From: Akkermansia muciniphila
GTDB lineage: Bacteria; Verrucomicrobiota; Verrucomicrobiia; Chthoniobacterales; Chthoniobacteraceae
NCBI GenBank assembly: GCA_945906945.1
Contig: CAMDSZ010000005.1
Location: forward strand, 1 to 38,208
Length of the DNA stretch: 38,208 bases
Direction of reading: 5' to 3'
A model generated the notes under the pieces. The model was given only the letters and a program-made list of their open reading frames with translations, was not told where the DNA came from and made no database searches. This document shows, in pieces, positions 3,461-25,661 of the stretch (positions are counted from its first letter, which is position 1; every line of letters starts with the position of its first letter). Position numbers and translations under genes: made by a program.

Positions 3461-3645
3461 TAAACTCAGAATCCTTCAGGGCGCAAATGAAAGGTTGTCC
3501 GAACACGAGATGGTGAAGACCTCGCAAAGGGCATTGCACGCTGTAGCCGAGTGGGCGGTATCCGATCGCGCAACGACAACTTTCTCGAGTGACTTATTCG
3601 CTCAAAGAACCGAGACGTAGCACTGGCACGAATCAGTGGGTGGGT

Positions 3646-4620
3646 ATGGTACTCGCGGTCGTGATCGTAAACTTTCGGACTTCGGAATACACGATAGCGT
3701 GTCTCCAGTCGCTTTTCGGCGAGCGAAAAGAATTCGCCGAATTCGAAGTTTTTCTCGTTGAAAACGGCTCGGAGGATGGGTCGCTCGGGGCGTTGACAGA
3801 CGCGATTCGCGAAAATGGCTGGGAAGGATGGGTCAACTTCTTGCCACAGTCTGAAAACCTCGGCTATGCCCGCGGAAACAACGTCGGGATACGAAGGGCT
3901 CTCGAGCGCCGCCACGACACAAGACCTTGCGAGTATATCTTGTTACTCAACAACGACACGGTCGTACATCAGGGATGCCTCAGCGCCACCATTAGCAGAA
4001 TGCGCTCGGATCCTTCGATTGGCGCCCTTAGTTGCATGGTGCGGAATTCAGACGGTTCTGTGCAGAACGTTTGTCGTAGGTTTCCGCGTCCCGATCTTGC
4101 CACAATCCGTGCAATTGGACTGCCCTACCTGTTGCCGCGCACCTTCGGATGGGCGGATCCGGAAGACACTGGCTGGCGGCGCGAGGGGGCGCTGCGCAAG
4201 GTGGATTGGATCGGGGGCGCATTCATGCTGTTGCGCGCGTCCGCATTGTGTGTGGTAGGGGATCTTGACGAGCGGTTTTTTTTCTACGGCGAGGACGCCG
4301 AGCTGTGTTTCCGGTTAAAACGCGCGGGTTGGAGTGTTGTTTTTGATTCAGCAGGAACCATCACCCATCATGGAGGCGCATCTTCGGACGCGCCGCGCTG
4401 TCCCGAAGTGCAGCGGATCCGCTGGCGTTGGGCAGCAAGGCTTCGCTTCCAGCGGGTGTGCTACGGGTTACTGGCTGAAGTTTGGCTTCGCACGGTGCAC
4501 ACGCTTTTTGTTGCGTTGAATTTATTCGTGATGGCGATAAGCGGCAGGCGAAGTTCGAGTGGATGGGATCGAACCCTGCTCGACCTTCGCGTGTTGATGA
4601 AAGGTGGGTTCACGATTTGA
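3646..4620 (+). CDS. GT2 family glycosyltransferase (rhamnosyltransferase-like)
   Basis: VLAVVIVNFRTSEYTIACLQSL...LVENGSEDGS...YILLLNNDTVV...GGAFMLLRASAL...DERFFFYGEDAELCFRLKRAGW. Start chosen at the internal ATG (ORF track opens at 3589). Confidence 0.88.
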   Translation: MVLAVVIVNFRTSEYTIACLQSLFGERKEFAEFEVFLVENGSEDGSLGALTDAIRENGWEGWVNFLPQSENLGYARGNNVGIRRALERRHDTRPCEYILLLNNDTVVHQGCLSATISRMRSDPSIGALSCMVRNSDGSVQNVCRRFPRPDLATIRAIGLPYLLPRTFGWADPEDTGWRREGALRKVDWIGGAFMLLRASALCVVGDLDERFFFYGEDAELCFRLKRAGWSVVFDSAGTITHHGGASSDAPRCPEVQRIRWRWAARLRFQRVCYGLLAEVWLRTVHTLFVALNLFVMAISGRRSSSGWDRTLLDLRVLMKGGFTI

Positions 4621-5807
4621 ATTTCGTTCACACAAATAAGGACGCTATCCGGGTTTGTTTGGTTCTCCCCGGCTTGCACTGTGTGAGCAGGGGAGCCGAG
4701 TCGATGTTTGAAAGCCTTGGGGAAGAGCTGGCAAAAGACCCTGACTTTCAGATTACGCTCATCGGTTCAGGGCCGGATCTGCCACACAGGCGGTATCGGT
4801 ATTTACAGGCCCGCTCGCGGATGCGTGAAACATTCTCAGCCTGGCCGCAAATCCCACCGCTTCGGAACGTGTATCGCTGGGAAGAGCTTTCTTTCACATA
4901 CGCATTGCGTCGCGTTTATTCACCTCAGGAATACGACTGCACGATCACCTGCAGTTATCCGTTTGTGAATTGGTGGCTGCGGTCAAATCGCAGAGCCAAC
5001 AAGCCTGCGCACATCTTTGTAACTCAAAACGGAGACTGGCCTGCGAGGCGTCTCAACGGCGAATATCGATTCTTCGCGTGTGAGGGGCTAATATGCACTA
5101 ACCCTGAATTTTACCGCCGCAACAGCGCCGCATGGAACACCGCGCTCATTCCAAACGGTGTCGATGTCACCCGGTTCTCGACTGCTCATTCAGACAGGGA
5201 GGCACTTGGCGTTCCTGCCAATGCAGTGGTGGTTCTGATGGCCGGAGCTCTTGTTCCACAAAAGCGCATTCTAGATGGTATTGCGCTCCTAAAAGATCTG
5301 CCGGAGTTATTTATTTTAATCGTGGGCGATGGGCCGATGCGCGCGCAAATCGAGAACGCTGCGGCAGCGTGCTTGGGCGACCGCTGGAAACTAATCTGCG
5401 TGCCGTTCGAAAGTATGCCGCTGGTTTACGCGTCCTCTGACTTACTGCTTCACATGAGTGTGGATGAGTCGTTTGGCAATATTTACGTCGAGGCCCTCGC
5501 GGCGGGGTTGCCTGTGGTGGCGCATCACACCGAACTAACGCGCTGGATTTTCGCTCGCCGGCGCCCGGGTTCATCGGGCGACTGCTTCGAATCTGACCTA
5601 GCATCCAAAGGGCCGGGCATGTGTGGGCCTGATGCCTGGCTGGTTGACACTACACAGCATTGGCAGGTGACTTCGGCTTTGCGGTGCGCGCTTTTATCGC
5701 GGCGGTCACCCCACTCCAGCTTGAATCCACTAGCGCGCACTTATTCGTGGGAAACTGTGTCCGGGGAGTATGCAGCATTTGTGAAGAAGGTGGTGTGCAA
5801 TGGATGA
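4617..5807 (+). CDS. GT4 family glycosyltransferase
   Basis: GT-B pattern: VCLVLPGLHCVSRGAESMFESLG, LIPNGVDVTRFS, VVLMAGALVPQKRILDGI, SVDESFGNIYVEALAAGLPVVAH. ORF opens at 4482 inside the previous gene; a TTG start at 4617 overlapping the upstream TGA is most plausible. Confidence 0.85.
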   Translation: MNFVHTNKDAIRVCLVLPGLHCVSRGAESMFESLGEELAKDPDFQITLIGSGPDLPHRRYRYLQARSRMRETFSAWPQIPPLRNVYRWEELSFTYALRRVYSPQEYDCTITCSYPFVNWWLRSNRRANKPAHIFVTQNGDWPARRLNGEYRFFACEGLICTNPEFYRRNSAAWNTALIPNGVDVTRFSTAHSDREALGVPANAVVVLMAGALVPQKRILDGIALLKDLPELFILIVGDGPMRAQIENAAAACLGDRWKLICVPFESMPLVYASSDLLLHMSVDESFGNIYVEALAAGLPVVAHHTELTRWIFARRRPGSSGDCFESDLASKGPGMCGPDAWLVDTTQHWQVTSALRCALLSRRSPHSSLNPLARTYSWETVSGEYAAFVKKVVCNG

Positions 5808-6852
5808 GGCGGGAAAAACGGTGGGCATCGTGGTGATTGCGCGGAATGAGGGTGAACGCTTGAGGCGCTGTTTGCTTTCAATCTGCAGACAAGCGCAGGC
5901 GATCGTGTATGTGGATTCAGGATCGACTGACGGAAGTGTGGCATTAGCGTCGAGTATGGGCGTCGATGTTTTGCGACTGGACCTATCTGCACCGTTCACG
6001 ATGGCGCGCGCACGAAATGCAGGCTTCACGCATCTGCTAAAGATGAACACTTCGATTCAGTTGGTGCAGTTTATTGACGGGGACTGCGAATTGGAAGAGG
6101 GCTGGGTGCAAACTGCATGTGCATGGGTAAAGTTGCATCCGGACGCAGCGGTTGTTTGTGGGAGAAGGCGGGAAAAGTTTCCGAGGGCTTCGGTTTACAA
6201 TATGCTGTGCGATATTGAATGGAATACGCCTGTCGGGCGAGCGCACTCGTGCGGAGGCGATGCGTTAATTCGCGTTGATGTTTTTAAGCAGGTAGGAATG
6301 TTTGACGCTTTGTTAATTGCCGGCGAAGAACCCGACCTTTGTGCGCGCATTCGGAAGCTCGGTGGTGTGATCTATAGACTTCCCGACAATATGACGCGGC
6401 ATGATGCTGCTCTTCTCACTTTCAAGGCGTGGTGGCGACGAATGACTCGATGTGGGTATGGCGCGATAGAGGTCGTGTCAAAGCTCACCAAGAAGCTTCC
6501 GATCAGTGAGGTGCCTTTTCGAGAATTAACCAGGAGCGCTAAGCTATGGTGTGACGGTTGGTGTATGTTTGTACTTTTGATTGGTGCTCTGAGCTACATT
6601 CATGAGCGTGCGAAGACTTCCAGTGAATGGGCGCATGTTGTGGGCACGGCGATAGTAATCGGGACGCTTGCTCAGGCGCTTCAATGCGTGAGGACGGCGT
6701 GGCGTAGCCGCGCTCGCGGGTCTTTTCATGATGTATTGGTTTACTCAGTGTTTGTGCAGATCGCCAAGTGGCCGCAGCGCATCGGGCAGTTGCTGTGGCA
6801 TAGAGACCAATGGATGCACACACCGGCGCGCTTAATTGAATACAAGGTATGA
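5800..6852 (+). CDS. GT2 family glycosyltransferase, membrane-associated
   Basis: GIVVIARNEGERLRRCLLSI...YVDSGSTDGSVALA...FIDGDCELEEGW; C-terminal hydrophobic segments. Confidence 0.88.
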   Translation: MDEAGKTVGIVVIARNEGERLRRCLLSICRQAQAIVYVDSGSTDGSVALASSMGVDVLRLDLSAPFTMARARNAGFTHLLKMNTSIQLVQFIDGDCELEEGWVQTACAWVKLHPDAAVVCGRRREKFPRASVYNMLCDIEWNTPVGRAHSCGGDALIRVDVFKQVGMFDALLIAGEEPDLCARIRKLGGVIYRLPDNMTRHDAALLTFKAWWRRMTRCGYGAIEVVSKLTKKLPISEVPFRELTRSAKLWCDGWCMFVLLIGALSYIHERAKTSSEWAHVVGTAIVIGTLAQALQCVRTAWRSRARGSFHDVLVYSVFVQIAKWPQRIGQLLWHRDQWMHTPARLIEYKV

Positions 6853-7358
6853 ACTGGCTAGACACGCTTCGATTAGATCTAAAGCGATACCCTCAGCACG
6901 CGTTCCTTCGCGAACAGTCAATTTGGGCGATCGCACTGTATCGAGTCGGACATGCGATGAATACAATGCCGTATGGCATCGCGCGCCGCGTTGTTGAACC
7001 CATCTACTGGCTTGCTTTTAGAATTATGGAGACACTTACCGGCTGTAGTTTTTCAAAGGATGTGCGAATTGGAGCGGGCCTGCGGATTCATCACTTTGGC
7101 AGCATCTTTATCCACGACGATGTGCAGATCGGTAGCAATTGTACATTGAGACAGGGGGTTACTCTCGGGAATCGCCACCCGGGGGGAGGCGTACCGATCG
7201 TGGGTGATGACGTCGAGTTCGGGGCTTATGCGCAGGTGCTCGGCGGTGTAAGAATCGGGAATCGCGCGAAAATCGGTGCGATGGCTGTTGTGGTTCGGGA
7301 CGTCCCTGACGGCGCGACAGTGGTCGGAATACCGGCCCGTGTTGTGAAACGCAGGTGA
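6849..7358 (+). CDS. serine O-acetyltransferase-like hexapeptide-repeat acyltransferase
   Basis: Left-handed beta-helix repeats VRIGAGLRIHHFGSIFIHDDVQIGSNCTLRQGVTLGN...IGAMAVVVRDVPDGATVVGIPARVV; 4-nt overlap with previous gene. Confidence 0.88.
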   Translation: MNWLDTLRLDLKRYPQHAFLREQSIWAIALYRVGHAMNTMPYGIARRVVEPIYWLAFRIMETLTGCSFSKDVRIGAGLRIHHFGSIFIHDDVQIGSNCTLRQGVTLGNRHPGGGVPIVGDDVEFGAYAQVLGGVRIGNRAKIGAMAVVVRDVPDGATVVGIPARVVKRR

Positions 7359-7379
7359 TCCCTCTGTGTGTAAGCAATC

Positions 7380-8642
7380 ATGCCAAAGTCCTCCTCTATT
7401 TTGTACGTTGCATCGCGCCTTCCCTGCCGCTCAGAGACGTTTGTGTACCGTGAGGTTGTGGCCTTGCGTAGTCATGGGGTGCGCATTTTAACGGCCTCCT
7501 TAAGGCAGCCTGAATCCGGACTTGGCGAGCCGGAGTTGGAAAAAATGGCGGCAGAGTCGATAGTCGTGTACGGCTCGTTTGCCCGCTTGATTGCCGACGT
7601 ATTCTCCGAGGCGGTATTTAATCTTAAGCTTACCGCGCGCACCTTTTTAGCTGCTTTCAGGGATGGGTTTTGGGAGGAGAATAAGCAGGGTGTATCCATC
7701 TTTAAAATCCTGATTCAGGCGGCGGGAGGAATTTCGCTTTCGCGCCGGATCCGTGGGCTAGGGGTAAGTCGGATACACTGCCACTTGGCGCATGCGCCCG
7801 CCACAGTAGCGATGTACGCCGCAATGCAGTCCTGCATACCGTTCAGCTTTACCGGGCACGGGGCGGATGTATTTCGAGATGGCTCGCTTTTGAAGCAAAA
7901 GCTGTCGCGGGCTGCTCAAGTGGTTTGCATCAGCCGCTGGCACCGAGAAGTGTACCAGCGGATCCATGCTCGTCCTGTTGCGCAGTACCCGCTGGTTCGA
8001 TGTGGCGTTGACACCGAGACGCAGTCTGCAGGTTCGGATGCGCGACAAGCAGCGATTCCTGAAGGGGAAGCTCTGCCGCTGATTCTGACTGTTGCTAGAC
8101 TAGTACCCAAGAAGGGGGTGCACCTTCTTGTTCAAGCGTTGGCGCGTTTGCACTGCGCGGGTCGGCGATTCAGGGCTGTGGTCGCAGGTGATGGTCCGGA
8201 GCTGAATAGCCTTCAAAAGCTTGCTGTTCATTGTGGGGTCTCCGGTCGGATCGAATGGAAAGGAGCGCTCATACACTCAGAGGTTACGGCTCTGATGCGC
8301 GGGGCCTCGGTGTTTGTTCTTCCATGTGTGATCGCCGATGACGGAGATCGGGATGGAATACCCGTCGTATTGATGGAAGCAATGGCTGTTGGAGTGCCGT
8401 GTGTGAGTTCGGATTTTCCTGCGATACGGGAATTGATCGAAGATGGTGTGTCAGGGCGGTTAATTGCGCCGGCGGATGTGAAGGAGCTTGCTCGCGCGAT
8501 CGAAGGATTGATATGGGACTCTTCGCTGAGGGCGCGGATTTGTTGCGGTGGTAAGGAGGCGGTGTCCTCCGAGTTTTCGACAAGGCTTAATGGACACAGG
8601 TTGCTGGATGTGTTCCAAGGCGAACGGGAGGTTGTTGCGTGA
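7380..8642 (+). CDS. GT4 family glycosyltransferase (colanic-acid WcaL/AmsK-like)
   Basis: SRLPCRSETFVYREVVALRSHG, HCHLAHAPATVAMYAA, FTGHGADVFRD, LTVARLVPKKGVHLLVQAL, DGIPVVLMEAMAVGVPCVSS. Confidence 0.88.
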   Translation: MPKSSSILYVASRLPCRSETFVYREVVALRSHGVRILTASLRQPESGLGEPELEKMAAESIVVYGSFARLIADVFSEAVFNLKLTARTFLAAFRDGFWEENKQGVSIFKILIQAAGGISLSRRIRGLGVSRIHCHLAHAPATVAMYAAMQSCIPFSFTGHGADVFRDGSLLKQKLSRAAQVVCISRWHREVYQRIHARPVAQYPLVRCGVDTETQSAGSDARQAAIPEGEALPLILTVARLVPKKGVHLLVQALARLHCAGRRFRAVVAGDGPELNSLQKLAVHCGVSGRIEWKGALIHSEVTALMRGASVFVLPCVIADDGDRDGIPVVLMEAMAVGVPCVSSDFPAIRELIEDGVSGRLIAPADVKELARAIEGLIWDSSLRARICCGGKEAVSSEFSTRLNGHRLLDVFQGEREVVA

Positions 8643-9598
8643 ATGTGGATTTCGTTGAGCGTTGCGATCATTACGTGCTGATTTCGCCTTGTCGTGATGA
8701 AGCAGAGTTCATACGGCGTAGTGTAGAGTCCGTCCTTAGGCAAACCCTGTTACCGTCGGCTTGGATTATTGTGGATGATGGGTCCACTGATGGGAGCGGT
8801 GAGTTGCTTGAGGAATATTCGATGCAGTTGCCGTGGCTTCGAGTCATCAAAAGGGTGGATCGTGGCATCCGCTCTGTGGGCCCCGGAGTGGTCGAGGCGT
8901 TTGAGCAGGGGCTCCAGTGCGTGGAGCTCGATCGCTTCGAGTATCTTTGTAAGTTTGATTTGGACGTGGAAATCCCAGAGCGCTATTTCGAAACTCTTGT
9001 GGATCGGATGACCGAGGATTCTCGTCTGGGCTCCTGCAGTGGGAAACCCTACTGCAGGGTTGGCAATACATTGGTCGAGGAAAAGTGCGGCGATGAAATG
9101 TCCGTGGGAATGACAAAGTTTTATCGAACCGAATGCTTCCGTCAGATCGGAGGGTTCGTGCGGGGGGTGATGTGGGACGGAATAGACTGCCACAGGGCTA
9201 GGATGTTGGGATGGATTGTTGCAAGCTGGGATGAGGAGGAGTTGCGGTTTTTACATCTTCGTGCGATGGGCAGTAGTGAGAGGGGGCTTTTGCGCGGGCG
9301 AATGCGGCACGGGTACGGGCAGTACTTCATGGGCACCGGCTTCGTGTACATGCTTGTAAGTGCAATCTACCGTATTGGCCAGAAGCCTGTCTGCCTGGGG
9401 GGATTTGCGATGCTGCTAGGCTATTTACGCAGTTGGTGGAGGAGGGTTGAGCGGTACGAGGACGCAGCTTTCCGCAGCTTTTTAAGGGCCTACCAGAGGG
9501 ATTGCCTTTTGCGAGGCAAACGAGCGGCAACGCTGCGCTTGGACGCCCAAGCACGACTGACGCATTTCAAAAGCGCCGTATGGGGTTCTCTGCGATGA
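8639..9598 (+). CDS. GT2 family glycosyltransferase
   Basis: VLISPCRDEAEFIRRSVESVLRQTLLPSAWIIVDDGSTDGSGELL; GTG start overlapping the previous stop by 4 nt. Confidence 0.86.
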   Translation: MNVDFVERCDHYVLISPCRDEAEFIRRSVESVLRQTLLPSAWIIVDDGSTDGSGELLEEYSMQLPWLRVIKRVDRGIRSVGPGVVEAFEQGLQCVELDRFEYLCKFDLDVEIPERYFETLVDRMTEDSRLGSCSGKPYCRVGNTLVEEKCGDEMSVGMTKFYRTECFRQIGGFVRGVMWDGIDCHRARMLGWIVASWDEEELRFLHLRAMGSSERGLLRGRMRHGYGQYFMGTGFVYMLVSAIYRIGQKPVCLGGFAMLLGYLRSWWRRVERYEDAAFRSFLRAYQRDCLLRGKRAATLRLDAQARLTHFKSAVWGSLR

Positions 9599-10746
9599 AA
9601 AACCGGGCTCCCGTGCTTGTAGTTTGCTTTGGGGCGCTCATGAATGGGTGCATCTCGCCCAAGGTTGGGGTGTATGCGAGCAACGGTCGGAAGACGTCCT
9701 TTTCGCGGGAGTCGCGGGTCTTACCTCGTGAGGAATTTGCAGCGGCAAAGGCGGCGCCCTCGCTGGCCTACGCCAGCGTCAAGCAGGTGGAAGCCTTCGG
9801 GGCATCGGCCGAGCAGGAATACCGCCTCGGTCCGGGGGACAAGTTTGCATTTATCGTGAGAGGCCGCCCGGAAATTTCCCGGGAGGAAATTGTTGTATCG
9901 CCGGATGGCGAGGTAGCACTGCCGCGGGCGGGAGTAGTAAATGTGGGAGGGCGTTCGCTCAAAAATGTTACGCATGAGCTGACTCACACGCTGAAGCAGC
10001 ATTACGAGGACCCTGAAGTGACGCTGGTGATGAAGCTTTTTGCGAACAACAGAGTCTTCGTGCTGGGACGCGTGGCCAACCCAGGCGCGGTACCGTTCAA
10101 CGGGCGCGGTTCCCTACTGGAGGCTCTTTCCCTCGCAGGTGGGCTTCCTGTTGATACCGGGAAGTCGTTCCTGAGCCGCTGCATGATCGTGCGGGGGAGC
10201 GAGATGGTAGTTTGGGTGGACCTTAGGGATCTGCTCGAAAACGGCAACATGGCGCTCAACGCCAAGCTGCAAAACGGTGACGTGATTTTTATTCCACAGA
10301 GTGAGGACCAGCTAGCCTATGTGATGGGACAGGTTGTCCAGCCTGGGGTACACGTGCTGCGCTCATCTCAGACAGTGCTCGACGCTGTAATGAGCCGGGG
10401 GGGACCCAGCCGAGAGGCGGATGTTTCAAAAGTAATAATCGCCCGACAGGTGCAGGGACGCGGTATGGTCGAGCAGATAGATCTCAGGGAGATTCTCACA
10501 AAGGGTGATATGCGGAAAAACTACACCCTCAAGGATGGCGACATTGTTTATGTGGGGGAATCGGGGGCATCGAAGATCAACTACTTCATCACGCGCCTTC
10601 TCCCCTCGATGCAGGTTGTTGATTTTGCGTTGCGTACAGCAGAAAGCACAGGCGCCCTGGCGGAGCTTCGGCGCAAGCTCTGGGGGCAGGAGGGATTTGT
10701 CGGCACCGGGGCATCGCCCACGTCGGCGGGGTCTTCAGGCAAGTGA
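9595..10746 (+). CDS. polysaccharide export outer-membrane lipoprotein, Wza-like (Poly_export + SLBB)
   Basis: Lipobox-like MKNRAPVLVVCFGALMNGC; EYRLGPGDKFAFIVRGRPEISREEIVVSPDGEVALPRAGVV; SLBB-like VLGRVANPGAVPFNGRGSLLEALSLAGG and MGQVVQPGVHVLRSSQTVLDAVMSRGG. Start placed at 9595 (ATGA overlap); ORF opens at 9502. Confidence 0.9.
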   Translation: MKNRAPVLVVCFGALMNGCISPKVGVYASNGRKTSFSRESRVLPREEFAAAKAAPSLAYASVKQVEAFGASAEQEYRLGPGDKFAFIVRGRPEISREEIVVSPDGEVALPRAGVVNVGGRSLKNVTHELTHTLKQHYEDPEVTLVMKLFANNRVFVLGRVANPGAVPFNGRGSLLEALSLAGGLPVDTGKSFLSRCMIVRGSEMVVWVDLRDLLENGNMALNAKLQNGDVIFIPQSEDQLAYVMGQVVQPGVHVLRSSQTVLDAVMSRGGPSREADVSKVIIARQVQGRGMVEQIDLREILTKGDMRKNYTLKDGDIVYVGESGASKINYFITRLLPSMQVVDFALRTAESTGALAELRRKLWGQEGFVGTGASPTSAGSSGK

Positions 10747-12875
10747 GTGAGGTAAGTGAAAATCTTCAACAACCCCAAAGAGCACGGCGAAAACCATTCG
10801 ATCTGAGCGCTGCTCTGAGCAGGCGCGCGGCGATCTTGCTCGGCCTTGGGATAATTCTGTCATTTGCCACGATTCCCGTTTGCCTGGCTGTCGTGAAGCC
10901 AAAGTATAGCGCATCTGCCGTGCTTCTAGTAGATGCCACCAAAGAGATCGCGATCAACGGAAAGGAGCGCGATCTGATTCCGGGCGACATCGGAGACTAC
11001 ACTCGAACACAAATCGGGCGGATGAAAAGCGTCGCGGGAATATCCGAAGCGCTCAACACATTACCCGAAAAGGCCCGGCCTAACTTTTGTAACCCGCAAG
11101 CATCTGCGATCAGCCAGGCCGTACAGTTGTTAAAACGCTTGGTCATACAAGAAGTGCCGCGCTCTCATCTCATTAACCTCAAACTTGAATCAGATGAACC
11201 CCGCTTTCTTGGCGATGCAGTCAACGCAGTTGTGGACGGATTCATCGGGAGACTCCATCTCGAACGCGAACGGCAAAACGAGAAACGCATTGAATATCTT
11301 CAGAGCGAGCGTGCACGCGTGGTTGAGCGTATCGAACACGAGCATCGCAGGCTGCTTGCTCACGCCGAGGGGATGGCGAACCGCGCTTTTCTACACGAAA
11401 ACTACACAGTCCATCTAAACAAGGTTGATCAAATCCAAAAACTATTTTTAGAGGCAGATGCGGAGCGTATTGCGCGTCAGGCAGCACTTGCGAAAGCGCA
11501 CTCGGACCGCAGTACGATACAAAAACTGAGCTTGCAGCCCTACGCCGACGAGCGAGTCGCTGATAACTTCGGAATCAATCGCATCGAGCAATACACATAC
11601 GAACAACTGCAGCAGATGCGCGTCACCGTTGACGGCCTCACGCCCGGGAATCAAGATCGGAAGTACGTGGAGGAGCGGATGGCCGCGATGAACCGCTATC
11701 TTGACGAGTATAAGGTGACGGTAAACGAGGCCACGATGCGTAATTTAGAGCAGAAGCGCGCATACGATCTCGAAAGTGAGGTGCTCCGCGCCGAAAGCGG
11801 ACTAGGCTCTGCAACATCTCGTGCCCTGGAACTCGGTTCTATTTTATCAGCGGCAACAGCAGAGGCCTCGGCGACCTCGGAGGCGATATTTAATGCATCC
11901 AGCGTCGCATACTCAATCAGGGAGCTGAGGGAGCGCCTGACTGCAATCAACAACCGGATTGATGACTGTCAGCTCGAGGCCAAGGCTTCCGTGAAGCTAG
12001 CTGTCGACAGTCGTGCCTCAAACCCGACCGTGCCGGCTTCCAGCACCAAAGTGAATGCTTTGGCGGGAGGACTTGGACTGGCTTATGGTTGCGCTTTGCT
12101 TTGTTGTCTCGGTTTTGAGTTTTTTGATACACGGCTGCGTTCTCGTCCAGATATTCAAGCTGCGCTGGGTGGGGAAGCACCGGATCCGGTGCCATCATTA
12201 AACGGGGCACCGCTGCATGGAGTTGTGGCTTCAGACTCGCTCGCAGGGGAGGTGCTGCGATCCTTTCGCTCTCTGGCCTCCCGAGTTGAACTCGAGCGAT
12301 CTGCAAAAACGGGCAGTGTGATCCTTCTGACAGGAGTCCATTCAGGTGCGGGGACCAGCTTTGTGGCTTATCACCTTGCGATCGCGCTTTCAGACTATAG
12401 CGATCAAATTCTTTTGCTCCAAACCTCGGTTACTGAATCGGAAAGTCACGTCGCGCCCAGGCACTCGACAGTCGAAGCCAACAAAAAAATTCGCGTTGAG
12501 CGTATTCCGAGCTCACGTTCCGGCGCAGCGATAGAGTTGGGAAGCCGAATCCGGGATGCACGTGAATCGTTTGATTTGATCTTGATTGATGCTGACCCGA
12601 TTTCAGTCGAGCCCTTCACCCGATTCATGATGATGCATGCTGATATGGCGGTGGTTGTGGCAAAGGCAGGCGTGACGATGTTTCATGACCTGGTTGGTGT
12701 CTTGAATGAAATACGTAGGCGTCCGATCGGCGCCATGACCGCACTGCTGAACTTTGCGCAAAAACCGCAGCGGATAGGGGTCCAGCGCAGGATTCAAAAC
12801 GGTATTGTGGCTGTGTCGAGTCTTGCCAAAAGATTCCGGCGCCGGCTTGCCAGACTGCGGTCAAACAGGTGTTGA
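10743..12875 (+). CDS. polysaccharide co-polymerase, Wzz/Wzc-like, with degenerate BY-kinase/ParA-type ATPase domain
   Basis: N-terminal TM plus YSASAVLLVDATKE Wzz-like region, long coiled coil, second TM, C-terminal SVILLTGVHSGAGTSFVAYHLAIAL (Walker-A position) and DLILIDADPI; GTG start overlaps upstream stop. Confidence 0.85.
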   Translation: MSEVSENLQQPQRARRKPFDLSAALSRRAAILLGLGIILSFATIPVCLAVVKPKYSASAVLLVDATKEIAINGKERDLIPGDIGDYTRTQIGRMKSVAGISEALNTLPEKARPNFCNPQASAISQAVQLLKRLVIQEVPRSHLINLKLESDEPRFLGDAVNAVVDGFIGRLHLERERQNEKRIEYLQSERARVVERIEHEHRRLLAHAEGMANRAFLHENYTVHLNKVDQIQKLFLEADAERIARQAALAKAHSDRSTIQKLSLQPYADERVADNFGINRIEQYTYEQLQQMRVTVDGLTPGNQDRKYVEERMAAMNRYLDEYKVTVNEATMRNLEQKRAYDLESEVLRAESGLGSATSRALELGSILSAATAEASATSEAIFNASSVAYSIRELRERLTAINNRIDDCQLEAKASVKLAVDSRASNPTVPASSTKVNALAGGLGLAYGCALLCCLGFEFFDTRLRSRPDIQAALGGEAPDPVPSLNGAPLHGVVASDSLAGEVLRSFRSLASRVELERSAKTGSVILLTGVHSGAGTSFVAYHLAIALSDYSDQILLLQTSVTESESHVAPRHSTVEANKKIRVERIPSSRSGAAIELGSRIRDARESFDLILIDADPISVEPFTRFMMMHADMAVVVAKAGVTMFHDLVGVLNEIRRRPIGAMTALLNFAQKPQRIGVQRRIQNGIVAVSSLAKRFRRRLARLRSNRC

Positions 12876-12919: not shown

Positions 12920-13964
12920 TCACCAATGGTAAATGCGGTTTCTAATGAGACCACTCGCCGAAACCAGCGCTGCAGTAGTAAATGCAGAGCGAAAAAGAGC
13001 GACAGGCAGTTTGAGCAAGAATTGCGGCAGTTTTAATCGGAGCGCCTGCCTGATCGGGAGGGTGATCACGTTGTAAGTAAAAAGCCAAAACTCGCGATGA
13101 TTGTGTCCGTTTGCCAGCAAGGAAGGAAACCAATCTGGCTTTTTGTCGTTCCATTCACAAATAAGTGCCCCGACAGGTTTGATGCGTCCTGAACCGATGT
13201 TTCGCAGGTGTGCAAATAACACGATATTCATCCATGTGCCGACAAGCAGTCTTACTTCGTGTTTAAAGACCGACCGTGGACTCGTCACAGCTTCAAAGGT
13301 GTGCGCTGCACCTTGAACTTGAATAAGTGCGTGTGGGTTCTCGCAGCTGGTAAAACTCTGCGTTGCGACCATCGCTTTTAAGAATCCATCTTCCACTAGT
13401 AATCCTCTCGGCATCCAGATCTCGCGAAGGACTGAGGCGCGCCCACAGTAAAGAGAGCCCGCTAATTTCGCGGGCCCCGCTTGGTTGAGTTCGGTGGCGG
13501 CGAGCGATAGCCGGTCTGTGAGGGACTGGTGTTGCTTAAAGGCGATGTCCTTCAGGATCACGTCTACCGACACTTTTGCGTCCGGATTATGGATAAGCGC
13601 ATCTACAAGCAGTCGCAGGCTGCTCGCACCCACTAAGGTGATATCCGCATCCATAAAGATAAAGAAATCCGCAAGAGTGTCTGAGAAACGATGAACATAC
13701 ATGTTCCATGCATTGCTCTTGCCTGACTCCGCAATCACCTCGGTCCGGGCACAAATTGAGGGGGTGGACGCGCCGGATAAAACCGCACGCCTGCTCGGCT
13801 TCGTGCGCGGTTGCATCCCGGCAGCCGTTTGCAAGGGTAATGACTTCCAAAAAGTCTCCGCGCTCCGCAGTGATTTTGAGAAGGTCCTGTGAGTTGAGGG
13901 ATTCGAGTAGGCGCCCGATGTGCCCTTGCTCGTTGTGCGCAAAAATGCCGATACTCACTCGCAT
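12920..13964 (-). pseudogene. GT2 family glycosyltransferase split by a single-base frameshift
   Basis: N-terminal part MRVSIGIFAHNEQGHIGRLLESLNSQDLL...FIRRVHP in ORF 13587..13964; remainder ICARTEVIAESGKSNAWNMYVHRFSDTLADFFIFMDADI... in ORF 12920..13942. Removing one base from the G5 run (13760-13764) joins them in frame. Confidence 0.8.
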
Positions 13965-14020: not shown

Positions 14021-15412
14021 ATGCATCTGACCCTAATGGTGCCGTTGATGATGTTTGGCTGGCTGCCATTCGCAGTTTGGATGTTTGGTAGGATTCGTCC
14101 GGGGCACCGCGCTGCGTTGTGTGGATTTTTATTAGCGTGGATGTTTCTTCCGCTTTACGGGTACCACCTCCCTGCGCTGCCGACCTACGATAAAATCAGT
14201 GCAGCAAGCTACGGTGTCTTGCTCGGGGCTGCGGTGCACGACCGCGAGGCATTCCGAAGATTTTCGCCGCACATCTGTGATTTGCCGGTCGCGCTTTGGT
14301 GTTTCGCTTCGATGTGTTCATCGGTGACAAACAATCTTGGCGTCTATGACGGTGGTTCCGCGATGCTCGCGAACGTGGTTGCGTGGGGAATTCCCTATTA
14401 CATTGGGAGGGTGTATTTTGATAACACAGCGGCACTTCGGGAGCTGTGCATCGGTCTGTTTGTGGGTGCAGTTGCGTATATTCCGTTTTGCTGGACTGAG
14501 TTCGCGATAAGTCCGCGGCTTCACAAGATCGTCTACGGGTGGCATCCGGGAAATTTTGGCCAAACAAAACGAAGCGGTGGTTGGCGCCCGATGGTGTTCA
14601 TGAAGCACGGGCTGATGTGTGGGATGTGGATGGCGAGCGGCGCAGTGGCTGGGCTACGCTTGTGGCAGGCGCGTTCAATCCCTGGCAAAATGCCCTGGGG
14701 AGGGATCTCAACTGGGCTTGTGGTGGGCGTGCTCATTCTAACGCTGGTGTTGTGCAAGTCTTTCGGTGCACTCGTGCTGATGATTCTTGGTGGCGTCATG
14801 ATTCCTTTTGTAGCGCGGTTCCGGATGATGTTGCCTATCGTGATTGTGTGCACGGTGCCGTCCTTGTACATGCTTGCGCGAGGGAGCGGTTGGTGGGACG
14901 CTGAGAACCTCATTGCAGCGTCGCTCACTATTTCTAATGAGGAGCGCTCTGAATCACTCGCGTTCCGGATCAAGAATGAGAATGTGCTGATCGAGAAAGC
15001 TCTTCTGCGTCCTGTGTTTGGTTGGGCAGGATGGAAAAGATCGTTTATTTTTAATGCGAGCGGTGTTGCGGTATCTGTCCCCGACGGATTGTGGATTGTG
15101 GCGTTTGGTCAGAATGGTCTTTTTGGGCTCTCAACGCTGACGCTCACTTTGCTTCTGCCGCAGATTCTGTTTCTTAAGACTTTTCCAGCCAGCATGTGGA
15201 GGCAGACGGCGGTTGCCTCGATTGCCCCTTTGTCGGTACTGCTCGGTCTGTTCATGATAGACAATCTCTTTAACGATATGTTCAACCCAGCCATGCTGCT
15301 TTCTGCAGGGGGGATCACCGGTTTGTACATCCGGCATTCGCGTGGGGAACGAGTATTGAGTCAGGGAACGATAAGCGTGAAAGAACCTGAGAATGGGGTC
15401 CGCTTGCTGTGA
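14021..15412 (+). CDS. polytopic membrane protein, O-antigen ligase/polymerase (Wzy)-like
   Basis: 463 aa with many hydrophobic segments and a large soluble loop (ENVLIEKALLRPVFGWAGWKRSF), position within the EPS locus. Confidence 0.7.
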   Translation: MHLTLMVPLMMFGWLPFAVWMFGRIRPGHRAALCGFLLAWMFLPLYGYHLPALPTYDKISAASYGVLLGAAVHDREAFRRFSPHICDLPVALWCFASMCSSVTNNLGVYDGGSAMLANVVAWGIPYYIGRVYFDNTAALRELCIGLFVGAVAYIPFCWTEFAISPRLHKIVYGWHPGNFGQTKRSGGWRPMVFMKHGLMCGMWMASGAVAGLRLWQARSIPGKMPWGGISTGLVVGVLILTLVLCKSFGALVLMILGGVMIPFVARFRMMLPIVIVCTVPSLYMLARGSGWWDAENLIAASLTISNEERSESLAFRIKNENVLIEKALLRPVFGWAGWKRSFIFNASGVAVSVPDGLWIVAFGQNGLFGLSTLTLTLLLPQILFLKTFPASMWRQTAVASIAPLSVLLGLFMIDNLFNDMFNPAMLLSAGGITGLYIRHSRGERVLSQGTISVKEPENGVRLL

Positions 15413-15598: not shown

Positions 15599-17878
15599 AT
15601 GAAGGGCCTTGAGGAGAGGTTTGCAGGGCTACGAGTGGATGAACTGGCGGATGAACTGAGGGGAGGAATAGTGGAAGATCTTTCGCGGGGGACTCGCGGT
15701 GCAGCATTTACTGGCACTGTTTATACGGTTGGGGTCTATGGGGCGTCCCAGCTTATCCGTCTTGCGTCTAGCGTACTCTTGGCCCGGTTGCTTATGCCCG
15801 AAGCATTCGGATTGATGGCGCTTGTGAACGCGCTCATACAGGGCATGGAGATGCTCACCGATCTGGGTGTGAGCGCAAATATCGTTCAAAGCCCGAGGGG
15901 GCAGGACACGGGATTCTTGCGAACCGCGTGGACTGTACAGATCTTGAGATGCGCTTTGATTTGGAGTTTAAGCGTTTTTACAGCCCGGCCTGTGGCTGCG
16001 TTCTTTGCAGTACAGGATGCGCGGTGTGCGGAACTAGAGGCGATCTTGCCTGTGGCAGCGGTTTCCATTTTGATCGCGGGCTTTAATTCCACCTCGATGT
16101 CGGTACTGAACAAGCGACTGGAGTTTGGCAGCACCGTCTGGCTTCAGCTGGTGCCCCAATTAGTTTGCCTTGCAGTAACGCTTGTATGGGCAACGTACTG
16201 CTCGCGAGATGCGTGGTCGGTTGTTGCTGGTGGAATCGCTGCAAGCCTTGTTCGTTGCGGGCTTAGTCACGCTCTAAATCCATTGGAAGCGGATAAACTT
16301 GGGTGGGATGGAGTTGTAGTAAAACAGCTGTGCAATTTTGGAATGTGGACGCTTCTGAGTTCCGCTGTTGCGTTTGTGGCGCAGCAGGGTGATCGGATTG
16401 CGTTGGCCCGGCTGATATCGATTGAGGAGCTGGGGCTTTATTCTTTGGCGATGGTGTTCGCACGGGTCGCGATGAACATAGTAAGCCGTCTTTCAAGCGG
16501 AGTGATATTTCCAATTCTTGCGGGCGCACAGAGTAATCCTGCAAGGTTGATGGAGCTTGCACTGGAGTATAGGGCGGCATTGCTGCGCGTAGCTGGCGTC
16601 GTGTGCATCGGTTTCTCACTAATCGCGCCGGTATTCTTTGGAATGTTTTACGAACTGCGATTTGAGCCAGCTGGACGGATGTCTCAGTGGCTGGCCCTTT
16701 ACATCTGGGTATGGATTCTGAGTGCCAGTGTGGACCGAATTCCACTCGCGCTCGGGAAAGCTAAGTCGCTTTTGCTTCCTGGTGTGGTGGCAGGGTTTTC
16801 GCCTGCCTGCGGGTATGCAGGATTTCATTGCGGCGGATTCGGCGGCTTTGTTGTGGGAATGTCACTATGTGTGTTGGTTTCGCATTTAGTGTTGTTGGGA
16901 GCGGTCCAGGACCGTCGAATTGAGTTTATGCGCCAGGGACTGTCTGCAAGTTTGCCGGTGATTGGGTATGGAGTTTTTTCGGTGTTTGTTTGCACTGAGT
17001 TTGAAGCGCGAGTTTCGGATGTGGCGGGTTCTGCGAGTCGCATCGGGCTAGCCTTAGTTCCGCTTGTCTGCAGTCTCTCAATGATACGCCGGTTCATACG
17101 GGGACCTAAGCTTGATGATTCACTTCGGTTGTTTGCGGAGCGAGTTTGTGAAGGGGCGGTTCCTGTCGAGGTGCTCAAGGAGAGGCCGAAGGATGTGCTC
17201 GTGGCACGGGCGAGAGGGCCGGGTGGGAAGGAGTTGGTGCTGAAGCTTTGGAACAGGCGGGGTATCCGTGGCTGGCTGAGGCGCGCAACGCGGACAAACT
17301 CTGGATGGCGCGAATACAGGGCGCTGCGTCGGCTGCGCGTTCGCGGCGCCCAGGTGCCGGAGGCGCTTGGGTATTTTAAACTGAGGGCGGACTGTGGCAA
17401 TTATACAGAGGCGCTCGTGCTTGAGGACTTGGGACGATGCGGTGATCTGACTGAGCATGTGAAGCGAGTAAGGCGCGAGCATGGTGATAAAGCGCTCGAG
17501 CCGATTCAGGATGAGTTGATCCGGTCCACTCGCGAGCTGTTGGAGTCGAATATCATTGATGAAGACCACCGCATGCCAAACTTTGTGGTGCGACCGTGCG
17601 GGGGATTGTCCCGGGTTGATTTTGAGCTGGCTAAGCGGGTCCGGCGTCCGGAGGAGGAGCCCGACAAGTTGGGCGTGATGCTTGGTACATTGATTGGCAG
17701 TTATGCGTTCGCGTTACAGCCCGACACATCACCAATTCTGCCGTTTGCTGAGGGGCTCGCCCGGGCATCAAAGGCGAGCGCGAAGGCACGCAGGATTGCC
17801 CGCATTCGCGTCGATGGGATGCTTAGAAGGCAGGATGTTGAGAAAGGGGTCCGTACTTCGGTGATTTTGCCTTGGTGA
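15599..17878 (+). CDS. Wzx-like polysaccharide flippase fused to C-terminal WaaP/YrbL-like kinase domain
   Basis: N-terminal MATE/Wzx signature GTVYTVGVYGASQLIRLASSVLLARLLMPEAFGLMALVNALIQG; C-terminal ELVLKLWN (Lys), WREYRAL (Glu), DHRMPN (DxxxxN), VDFELAKRV (DFG-like). Confidence 0.82.
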   Translation: MKGLEERFAGLRVDELADELRGGIVEDLSRGTRGAAFTGTVYTVGVYGASQLIRLASSVLLARLLMPEAFGLMALVNALIQGMEMLTDLGVSANIVQSPRGQDTGFLRTAWTVQILRCALIWSLSVFTARPVAAFFAVQDARCAELEAILPVAAVSILIAGFNSTSMSVLNKRLEFGSTVWLQLVPQLVCLAVTLVWATYCSRDAWSVVAGGIAASLVRCGLSHALNPLEADKLGWDGVVVKQLCNFGMWTLLSSAVAFVAQQGDRIALARLISIEELGLYSLAMVFARVAMNIVSRLSSGVIFPILAGAQSNPARLMELALEYRAALLRVAGVVCIGFSLIAPVFFGMFYELRFEPAGRMSQWLALYIWVWILSASVDRIPLALGKAKSLLLPGVVAGFSPACGYAGFHCGGFGGFVVGMSLCVLVSHLVLLGAVQDRRIEFMRQGLSASLPVIGYGVFSVFVCTEFEARVSDVAGSASRIGLALVPLVCSLSMIRRFIRGPKLDDSLRLFAERVCEGAVPVEVLKERPKDVLVARARGPGGKELVLKLWNRRGIRGWLRRATRTNSGWREYRALRRLRVRGAQVPEALGYFKLRADCGNYTEALVLEDLGRCGDLTEHVKRVRREHGDKALEPIQDELIRSTRELLESNIIDEDHRMPNFVVRPCGGLSRVDFELAKRVRRPEEEPDKLGVMLGTLIGSYAFALQPDTSPILPFAEGLARASKASAKARRIARIRVDGMLRRQDVEKGVRTSVILPW

Positions 17879-19260
17879 TTATGCATGCGCCAAACTTTGA
17901 CCCAAAGTCGGTAGTAGTATTCGGGCATCGATTCCACGATGTAACGTTCGGCGAGGCTGTCAGCTGGGCGGTGTCTCGAATGAAAAGCGGTCCGCCTTCG
18001 TACATGGCGACCGTCAATTTGGATTTTGTCATGCAGGCTCGTCGTGATCCCGAGATGCAGCGGATACTCCTGGAGGCTGATCTGGTGACCGCCGATGGCG
18101 ACCCGTTGGTGCGTACGTCCGGCTTGTTCGGGCCGCGCCTCAGGCAGCGGGTGACGGGGAGTGATTTGGTGCCAATGCTGGCTGGCGCGTGTGCCGACGA
18201 AGGCTTGAGAGTTTTTTTGCTAGGGGGCGCAGATGGCGTCGCAGAGAAGACCGCCGCAGTGTTGAAGATCCGCAATCCTGGTCTGAAGATTTGCGGAACC
18301 TACGCGCCTCCGGTGACGGGTTTGCTTGATATGAATCACGGTGAGATTCTGCGCCGTCTGCGGTTGGCGAAGCCAGACTTACTGTTGGTGGCATTCGGTG
18401 CTCCCAAGCAGGAGAAGTTCATTAACCTGCATTTTCGTTCCTGGGGTATTCCGTTAGCCGTGGGGGTGGGTGCCACCTTTGACTTTATCGCTGGGGTTCA
18501 AAAACGGGCGCCTTCGTTTATGCAGAAGTGGGGACTCGAGTGGCTGTGGCGCCTTGGTAGTGACCCGCGTCGATTGTTTCGTAGGTACGCCAGCAATTTG
18601 CTTTTTCTGGTCAGTACATTGAAGCGGCTTCGGCGGATGTACTGGCACGCTCCCCGTCTATGTTGGCTGCAGGAGTCTAAGTTAGACTTTGGTTTGTGTG
18701 AGAGCGGCTTACTCGGTCGCGGACAGGTGATTGAGGTTTCAATTGCGGATCGCGACTGGCTCAGTAGCGACGATCTCGGGCGTATTGTTGGTGTTGCCGC
18801 CCATTTGCGCCGAAGGGGTGGTCGTTTGGTACTGCATGGCGCTACTCCGAAGCTGCGGCAACTGTTAGTGGAGGCGCGGTTAGCGGGCTATCTAGAGCTG
18901 CGAGGGAGCGAGGCGGAGGCTCGATCGAGGGTCGGGGAGTTGAGAAGCGGGAGGACACTGGGGGGAATGTATTTCGATGGAGAGCGGCTTGTATTGCGGA
19001 TGCCTGCGGAGTGTTCTGTATCGGGCCTGTCGCGTTGGGTTCGCACCGTTAGTCGAGGGATGGCAAAGCAGCCGGCGTCTGTGTTTTTGGATGCTGCGGA
19101 AAGTGAGTATCTGGACACGGCAGGCGTGATGTGGCTGCTGAGAACTCGCAGAGATTGCAACCGAAAGGGAATTCTCTTTTCCACGAGCAGGTTTAGAGGG
19201 AGTGCGAGGCGTGCGCTCCTGCTTGCTGGGGTGGAGCAACTGTTTTGTCCGCAGCATTGA
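17872..19260 (+). CDS. WecG/TagA/CpsF (GT26) glycosyltransferase with two C-terminal STAS-like domains
   Basis: GT26 motifs YMATVNLDFVMQARRDPEMQRILLEADLVTADGDPLV, VFLLGGADGVAEKTAAVL, DLLLVAFGAPKQEKFI, VGVGATFDFIAGVQKRAP; C-terminus ASVFLDAAESEYLDTAGVMWLLRTRRDCNRKGI...ALLLAGVEQLF is STAS-like, preceded by a second, more degenerate copy. Confidence 0.85.
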   Translation: MVIMHAPNFDPKSVVVFGHRFHDVTFGEAVSWAVSRMKSGPPSYMATVNLDFVMQARRDPEMQRILLEADLVTADGDPLVRTSGLFGPRLRQRVTGSDLVPMLAGACADEGLRVFLLGGADGVAEKTAAVLKIRNPGLKICGTYAPPVTGLLDMNHGEILRRLRLAKPDLLLVAFGAPKQEKFINLHFRSWGIPLAVGVGATFDFIAGVQKRAPSFMQKWGLEWLWRLGSDPRRLFRRYASNLLFLVSTLKRLRRMYWHAPRLCWLQESKLDFGLCESGLLGRGQVIEVSIADRDWLSSDDLGRIVGVAAHLRRRGGRLVLHGATPKLRQLLVEARLAGYLELRGSEAEARSRVGELRSGRTLGGMYFDGERLVLRMPAECSVSGLSRWVRTVSRGMAKQPASVFLDAAESEYLDTAGVMWLLRTRRDCNRKGILFSTSRFRGSARRALLLAGVEQLFCPQH

Positions 19261-23637: not shown

Positions 23638-24663
23638 TCATTCACGCTTGAGCTCGCCGCAGTGGGCGGAAAATCCGGCGCCAAAAGCGGTGAGCCAGAG
23701 GGTGTCGCTCTCCGGGAAGTTCTCGAGTGATTCCTCAAGCGCAGCTAGCACGCTAGGGCTGCTGATGTTTCCGAATTTGCGGAGGACCGCGCGCGTTTCG
23801 GTCAGCCGGTAGGCGGGGATCGCTTGCTCGATCGCATCCACGACATCGCGGCCGCCGGTGTGCGCGATCAGGCGGTCCGGGTTCGCCGATTTCATTTCGA
23901 ATAGTTCAGAAACGGTTTTGGCTGCGAGCCCAGGAACATCGCGATGCAGCTGGTTTTTGAGTCGCCCGTCGGAGTTTACGAAGCGGATTTTCTCCCTGTG
24001 CTCCGGCTTGTGGATAGTCCGGAAATTTTGAAAGCGGAATTGTTCCCCTTGGTTTTTGCCTTTCCAGATCGCAGCCGCTGCGCCATCGCCAAAGAGGCAC
24101 AGGCTGATGAGCACGCCGGGTTCATCGTCCAAGTAAAAGGCGGCGGAGGAGATTTCCACCGCCACCGTCGCGATCGTGGCCTGCGGTTCTGCCGCAAGAA
24201 TGCCGCGCGCTGTCTCGAGAAGCGGTAGGGCGGCCCCACAGCCCAGGCCAAGCAGATCCTGCAGAAAGGCATTGGGCTGAAGCCCGAGAATTTCCGAAAC
24301 GTAGCTGCTCAAGCCCGGACAAAGGTATCCGGTGCAAGTGCAGATAAGGAGAGCGTCGATACTGGAGGGCTTAAGCGAGGCCGATTCGCAGGCCTTGAGA
24401 ATGGCATCTGACGCGAGTCTTGGCGCGTGCTTTTCAAAATACCGGTGTAGTTCGCCTGCATTCCATTGGAAGGTGTTCTGCAACTCCGGATCACAAAATC
24501 GCCTTGCTTCGATTCCGGAATCGCCCGCGAGAACCTTGTGGAGCAAATCCCTTGAGCGTCCTCGTAGTTGATTAAGCGCTCCTGATTTGTTGAGTATTTG
24601 CAAGCAGTCCGCCTGTGAGAAGGAGTGGGGAGGAAATGCGGTGGCAAGGGATTGGAGGTACAT
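23638..24663 (-). CDS. type III polyketide synthase (chalcone/stilbene synthase family)
   Basis: LLICTCTGYLCPGLSSYVSEILGL, LLGLGCGAALPLLETARG (catalytic Cys region), FGDGAAAAI, IAHTGGRDVVDAIE (His), LRKFGNISSPSVLAALE (Asn). Confidence 0.9.
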   Translation of the reverse strand: MYLQSLATAFPPHSFSQADCLQILNKSGALNQLRGRSRDLLHKVLAGDSGIEARRFCDPELQNTFQWNAGELHRYFEKHAPRLASDAILKACESASLKPSSIDALLICTCTGYLCPGLSSYVSEILGLQPNAFLQDLLGLGCGAALPLLETARGILAAEPQATIATVAVEISSAAFYLDDEPGVLISLCLFGDGAAAAIWKGKNQGEQFRFQNFRTIHKPEHREKIRFVNSDGRLKNQLHRDVPGLAAKTVSELFEMKSANPDRLIAHTGGRDVVDAIEQAIPAYRLTETRAVLRKFGNISSPSVLAALEESLENFPESDTLWLTAFGAGFSAHCGELKRE

Positions 24664-25661
24664 TAGCGGACCAGATTGAGAAGGGTCTGAAATGGCAGAA
24701 ATCTGCGGCGGGCGAGCGCGCCGATGAGCTTCAGTCCCGTTCGGTTCGTCAGGCAGTGATGCAGCAGTCCTGCGGCCGTCATGCGGCGTCTAAAGCGGAT
24801 AGCCTGGGCTGCTGTCGATATTTCTCCCGCTTCGCGCCATGGTATGCGGCCCGAAGCGTAGTCGAGTGCAGGTTGCAGCGCGCATTCGGCAGACTGAAAC
24901 GCCATGCTCATCCCATTGCCGGTGAAGGGAGGAATCATGCTGGCTGCGTCGCCAATGCTAAAGGTAGGGCCGCGTTGAAAACCTGGCTTAAATCCCGCGA
25001 CTCCGCAGAAACTCGACTCTGCTAGTTCTGCGCTCTCGAGACGGTCAGCAAGGAGATGGAGGGACGCCCGCCGAAGCACTGAAATGAGAAGGCCGGCGCC
25101 CTTTGCGCCAGAGCTAGGTCGATTGGTGAATAGACCGCAAATGTTGACCTTCCCGTCCTCAATTTTTGCGAGACCGACGTAACCGTCCGGCGAGGTGAAC
25201 ATCTCGAGATCATGTGAGAGTTCGAGATTGCGCGCATGGCACTTCAACCCGAGCCAGTCCGATGGCTGCCGTGGGCGGCCCGCAGCCCAGATGACGCCGG
25301 GAGCCGATGCGATGCGGGAGTTTGTCACGAGAGTGCCCCCCAAAGCTGTGAATTGCTTTTGTAGGATATCATCCAACTTCCAGCGGGAGATCCCGTGTCC
25401 CGGAGCGTTCATTTCGGCAAGTCTGCCAGACGCGTCGCTCCATGACGCGCTTTGCAAATTTGTAGCTTCGCTGAGGCAATTGCCGATGCCGAGCGATTCG
25501 AGCGTTTCGTTGCTCACGCCGCTGATAAACTCTCCGCATACGCGATGTCGCGGGTAGGTAGAGGCTTCGTGGAGCGTGACGGAGACGCCGCGCGACTGCA
25601 GCCCGATAGCAAGCGATAGCCCAGCCAGTCCTCCACCCGCGATGGTGATTGAGTGTTTCAA
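24663..25661 (-). CDS. FAD-dependent oxidoreductase/monooxygenase
   Basis: SITIAGGGLAGLSLAIGLQSRGVSVTLHEASTYPRHRVCGEFISG dinucleotide-binding motif; FSIGDAASMIPPFTGNGMSMAFQSAECA. Confidence 0.9.
   Translation of the reverse strand: MKHSITIAGGGLAGLSLAIGLQSRGVSVTLHEASTYPRHRVCGEFISGVSNETLESLGIGNCLSEATNLQSASWSDASGRLAEMNAPGHGISRWKLDDILQKQFTALGGTLVTNSRIASAPGVIWAAGRPRQPSDWLGLKCHARNLELSHDLEMFTSPDGYVGLAKIEDGKVNICGLFTNRPSSGAKGAGLLISVLRRASLHLLADRLESAELAESSFCGVAGFKPGFQRGPTFSIGDAASMIPPFTGNGMSMAFQSAECALQPALDYASGRIPWREAGEISTAAQAIRFRRRMTAAGLLHHCLTNRTGLKLIGALARRRFLPFQTLLNLVR

Follow-up and report, generated by a model that had tools for sequence, protein, structure and literature searches.

The window, i.e. 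the whole stretch of 38,208 nucleotides analysed here, carries on its forward strand a set of genes whose content and order match those of Wzx/Wzy exopolysaccharide clusters with an outer-membrane polysaccharide export (OPX) protein and a Wzc-type co-polymerase. Glycosyltransferases of the GT2 and GT4 types and a hexapeptide transferase (3589 to 9598, assigned by Pfam) are followed by the OPX protein with its SLBB domains (9502 to 10746; PF02563, PF22461) and by a Wzc-like polysaccharide co-polymerase (10743 to 12875; weak Wzz and AAA_31 matches). The latter is a BY pseudokinase with a degenerate P-loop, no Walker A motif and no C-terminal tyrosine cluster, and is of a similar kind to EcpK, a pseudokinase of Myxococcus (PMC12004946). 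A polytopic Wzy-like protein (14021 to 15412) gave no Pfam match and is called a polymerase by its position, homologues of 41-57% identity being encoded immediately upstream of wzx in related clusters. Downstream of it lie a gene encoding a flippase joined to a kinase-fold domain (15599 to 17878) and, overlapping the 3' end of this fusion gene, the frame of a WecG/TagA/CpsF glycosyltransferase (17872 to 19260; PF03808, E 3e-53) with two C-terminal STAS domains (STAS_2 in two stretches). The cluster departs from standard Wzx/Wzy clusters in the kinase fused to or paired with Wzx, in the STAS-bearing WecG and in the co-polymerase without a working P-loop. On the reverse strand, a GT2-type glycosyltransferase gene (12920 to 13964), which is a conserved opposite-strand gene in related clusters, is apparently split between two frames, with the N-terminal part in 13590 to 13964 and the remainder in 12923 to 13942, and is therefore either broken or mis-sequenced.

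The fusion gene is a single frame of 759 uninterrupted codons, as an initial annotation made from the sequence alone had described it, and the kinase follows the transmembrane (TM) region of the flippase in frame. A start/stop artefact turning two genes into one, which that annotation had named as a possible error, and an assembly join are both ruled out by the same fusion in two other genomes. The N-terminal half (residues ~1-501, 15599 to 17101) is, by homology, the Wzx flippase of an exopolysaccharide pathway. Its Polysacc_synt profile match (PF13440, residues 60-347, E 6e-42, 144 bits), its 14 TM segments predicted by hydropathy scan, the last ending at about residue 496-501, and its MOP fold agree with the profile, 12-14 TM bundle and fold of Wzx/MOP flippases. 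In the full-length AlphaFold model (mean pLDDT 79; kinase part mostly >90) the closest solved structures to the first half are MurJ and WzxE. With the N-terminus inside, the cytosolic loops contain 17 Lys/Arg as against 9 in the others (both termini excluded), so that the C-terminal kinase domain is predicted to face the cytosol.

The kinase-fold domain (residues ~506-759, 17114 to 17875) has its motifs where the initial annotation had placed them. These are the VAIK-type ATP lysine Lys549 in KLWN (17243 to 17245), the alpha-C glutamate Glu572 in WREY (17312 to 17314), the catalytic loop D-x-D-H-R-M-P-N (17558 to 17581), which contains the catalytic base Asp656 of DHRMPN (17564) and the metal ligand Asn661 (17579), and the DFG-type metal aspartate Asp674 in VDFEL (17618 to 17620). 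All five residues are invariant across nine kinases that are 38-48% identical to that of the window, and so are D, D, H, R, P and N of the loop (9/9 each). Conservation of these catalytic and metal-binding residues in such diverged proteins suggests that activity is selected for. The domain thus appears catalytically active, with all ATP and Mg residues in place in sequence and model, and we reject an identity as a pseudokinase on the strength of these residues. The Pfam and AlphaFold checks that the initial annotation had proposed both pointed to a kinase fold. PF06293 (Kdo/WaaP kinase) matches residues 565-626 of the full protein with 22.6 bits and the domain alone with 25.0 bits, each above the cut-off of 21.3, although the latter match is partial (53-115 of 207). 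Modelled alone with nine homologues, the domain adopts a kinase fold (pLDDT 92.9) whose best Foldseek matches are PRPK/Bud32, WaaP (6dfl) and Rio2; WaaP and Rio2 are also the closest solved structures to the second half of the full-length model. A profile of the nine sequences finds WaaP 6dfl among PDB sequences (E 2e-4); hits to PPR and WD40 repeat designs arise spuriously from short repeated stretches.

The term 'WaaP/YrbL-like' used initially holds for the WaaP-like fold and the intact catalytic residues, as does the flippase assignment, but is too narrow, since Bud32/PRPK and Rio2 are equally close. The kinase shares with WaaP/KdkA (PF06293) the kinase fold, the Lys-Glu-Asp-Asp core (K549, E572, D656, D674), a profile score above the Pfam cut-off and, by cluster context, a role in surface-glycan assembly. 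Its catalytic loop differs: the HxD of WaaP/Kdo kinases is DxD in 9/9 family members, the second metal site is Asn661 instead of the His168 of WaaP, and the invariant HRxP signature is a further departure (PMC6147952 for WaaP, in which H161A supports no growth). Moreover, WaaP and KdkA are encoded in LPS-core loci, whereas the fusion kinase is joined to or encoded beside Wzx. We therefore regard the domain as a relative, rather than a proven member, of the WaaP/Kdo kinases. Bud32/PRPK and Rio2 are among the nearest solved folds (TM 0.6-0.7 to PRPK), and a weak RIO profile match occurs in 3/3 family members scanned, with the RIO1 Pfam score below cut-off; yet they are only 14-21% identical, have no membrane partner and lie outside glycan clusters. 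Kannan and colleagues group KdoK, Rio and Bud32 loosely together and regard the four residues that separate the catalytic Asp from the Asn as diagnostic of a family (PMC1821047). The fusion-kinase family would fit this group as a further branch with D-x-D-H-R-x-P-N as its own signature. The fusion also indicates a small kinase subfamily, lying between WaaP and Bud32, that is apparently uncharacterised.

Few members of this family were found. Single-sequence searches revealed no other member in the window's order (213 genomes), where only coiled-coil and reverse-frame noise and one LanKC-like protein were returned, or in its class (385 genomes sampled), where the window itself was the only match. 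PF06293 matches across the order are mostly Ser/Thr kinases and LanKC-like proteins, as we read their sequences. Several loci from another family of the order (L026-L035) encode ~450-aa proteins in which a Kdo-profile kinase region is preceded by a part resembling class III/IV lanthipeptide synthetases. In the phylum sample, an uncultured Verrucomicrobia genome (G550, identical to the L069 record) has the same fusion with 43% identity over residues 33-759, and in Kiritimatiellaeota bacterium B1221 (G587) flippase and kinase are two genes; the nine-sequence profile found a close member in only 3/360 phylum genomes. The kinase alignment, run against 85,462 species genomes, yielded eight loci including these two; the scan is pattern-limited, so further members may exist. 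The other loci are a further fusion (L066), from the family to which G550 belongs, and stand-alone kinase genes of Desulfonatronospira, Desulfonatronum, a PVC bacterium, a gammaproteobacterium and Candidatus Thiosymbion. The whole fusion used as query gave no match in the genome-contig scan, in which the kinase alignment did match, and the kinase query gave none in plasmids. The constant partner of the kinase is Wzx, to which it is fused in three clusters including the window, the other two also from Verrucomicrobiota, and which it directly follows in the other six, from Kiritimatiellota/PVC, Desulfovibrionales-type and gammaproteobacterial genomes.

The gene order OPX, co-polymerase, Wzy-like protein, Wzx, kinase and WecG is shared across clusters, and genus mates of the window's organism have the same OPX-PCP-Wzy-Wzx-WecG backbone without kinase. 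A degenerate co-polymerase P-loop is found in kinase-positive and kinase-less clusters alike; that the fusion kinase replaces the inactive BY kinase is therefore unsupported. A branch of the Wzx tree with support 100/99 separates the three fusions from the other sequences, and a topology in which the window's wzx goes with the genus-mate genes is rejected (p-AU 7e-5). Conversely, the Wzy tree places the window with its kinase-less genus mates (98/97), a topology uniting its wzy with that of the fusion cluster is rejected (p-AU 0.014), and the OPX tree agrees in placing the window's opx with the genus mates. The flippase-kinase gene was hence probably swapped in as a unit. The simplest account is a single fusion event and, in the lineage of the window, horizontal exchange of the flippase gene for the flippase-kinase gene; the long branch of the window's wzx makes this likely rather than certain. 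The kinase tree leaves the grouping of the fusions as a single group unresolved.

What does the kinase phosphorylate? The initial annotation had suggested that it modifies the lipid-linked oligosaccharide at the flipping step or acts as a checkpoint on export, and from context this is the best-supported mechanism. The best explanation is that the lipid-linked repeat unit receives its phosphate ahead of flipping, and we give it an even chance of being right. The fusion would be a bifunctional repeat-unit export protein with a 14-TM Wzx half and a cytosol-facing kinase-fold half. At the cytosolic face, the kinase would transfer phosphate from ATP to a sugar of the undecaprenyl-PP-linked repeat unit, shortly before the fused Wzx takes the unit across or while it does so, and Wzx would handle and perhaps prefer the phosphorylated unit; the end product would be a phosphorylated, anionic exopolysaccharide. 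This explanation draws on the fusion, the intact active site, the constant pairing with Wzx and the glycan-cluster context, with the cytosolic side coming from prediction. It is supported by the fold, which places the domain with WaaP, a kinase acting on lipid-anchored sugars, and by the predicted position of the domain on the side of the ATP. The kinase-less backbone of the genus mates is as expected if the phosphate is an optional decoration. The wzx gene follows the fusions and wzy the genus mates, as though the flippase and its kinase moved together as matched partners, and their being neighbouring genes in relatives suggests that the phosphate is added as part of export. Against glycan phosphorylation, the DxDHRxPN loop differs from known LPS sugar kinases, the nearest fold, Bud32/PRPK, is not a sugar kinase, and the clusters encode STAS domains, well-known targets of phosphorylation.

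In the manner of WbdD-type kinases, which cap O-antigen chains, the phosphate might be a terminal or capping one that curbs chain growth or tags the first unit instead of decorating each repeat. In favour of this, the kinase is predicted to sit on the cytosolic side, where the assembly of single units is completed. In the Wzx/Wzy pathway, however, chains are built in the periplasm out of units flipped one by one, so that a cytosolic kinase encounters units and not chains; Pfam showed no methyltransferase partner in the cluster either. We consider such a cap very improbable.

MviN of Mycobacterium tuberculosis is a MurJ-type flippase of the MOP superfamily. It is the closest precedent for the fusion, i.e. 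a MOP flippase and a C-terminal kinase-fold domain on one chain, but its domain is a pseudokinase which cannot bind ATP, has lost all three catalytic motifs and recruits FhaA as a scaffold (PMC12599244). A kinase-fold domain on a MOP flippase is thus already known, albeit a dead one, which qualifies the initial remark that no characterised example of such a fusion was known to the annotator. Within a word search of the open literature, no Wzx joined to a kinase with an intact catalytic site came up. MviN serves peptidoglycan and the fusion exopolysaccharide synthesis; the fusion has neither the degenerate motifs nor the ActPs3 sequence of MviN-type flippases, and the nine-sequence kinase profile matched no MviN structure at E <= 10. 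Following the MviN example, the domain could be a Bud32-like ATPase, a nucleotide sensor or a scaffold bringing Wzx together with WecG and the co-polymerase, without phosphotransfer to glycan or protein. PRPK/Bud32 as the nearest solved fold and a co-polymerase that is itself a BY pseudokinase are in keeping with this. We nevertheless hold it to be improbable, for the catalytic and metal-binding residues that MviN has lost are all invariant in nine diverged homologues.

The STAS domains of WecG raise the question of a protein substrate. STAS-bearing WecG proteins occur in the kinase clusters with enough sequence. Related WecG proteins have two, one or degenerate STAS domains, and in clusters with a two-STAS WecG the second domain keeps D-[ST]-[AS]-[GA], which reads D-T-A-G in the window. 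This lies at a SpoIIAA/RsbV/SypA-type phosphosite, presumably equivalent to Ser58 of SpoIIAA. The kinase might accordingly regulate export by phosphorylating the STAS domains of the neighbouring WecG, or the flippase, thereby turning the supply of repeat units on and off. A precedent is SypA, a STAS protein encoded in a polysaccharide locus and controlled by serine phosphorylation (PMC4517449), and Bud32 and Rio, among the nearest folds, are protein kinases or ATPases. Yet the fusion partner is Wzx and not WecG, and strict pairing of kinase and STAS is unsupported, as two genomes (G036, G652) have a STAS-bearing WecG without a close kinase of the family. Furthermore, in two gammaproteobacterial clusters WecG is not beside the kinase (~15 kb off in one, none found in the other), and the usual STAS pair, a response regulator-PP2C and an RsbW-like ATPase, is encoded beyond the kinase on the opposite strand (L073 9691-11489, L072 9360-11131), so that ordinary partner switching likely controls STAS there, and with it perhaps the synthesis of the exopolysaccharide. 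We therefore judge a regulatory protein kinase, the main rival, unlikely, though less so than a cap or a scaffold. The locus also points to exopolysaccharide clusters controlled through STAS domains.

If the repeat unit is the substrate, as we favour, the flippase might read the phosphate. Wzx prefers its cognate repeat unit (PMC6436433). TacF of Streptococcus pneumoniae is a MOP flippase that reads the phosphates on phosphocholine and holds back units lacking this modification, its transport depending on this phosphate-bearing decoration; the decorating enzyme is, however, unfused and not a kinase of the present family (PMC13385700). Against the favoured explanation, Arg289 is the only flippase column that separates kinase-linked from most kinase-less Wzx, a weak signal that could be chance. 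The fusion could be a self-licensing flippase, in which a new Wzx-fused kinase subfamily phosphorylates the lipid-linked unit and export through that same protein is open to phosphorylated units only; a single polypeptide would then both write and read the export permit. We advance this tentatively and consider it rather doubtful. The locus bears on how Wzx flippases check repeat-unit completeness, and a flippase joined to an apparent cargo-modifying enzyme makes modification and export dissectable by point mutation in a single protein.

Elsewhere in the window, a type III polyketide synthase-like gene adjoins one for an FAD-dependent oxidoreductase (23638 to 25661), and a 1511-aa protein combines BNR repeats with a 3-keto-disaccharide hydrolase domain (33627 to 38162).
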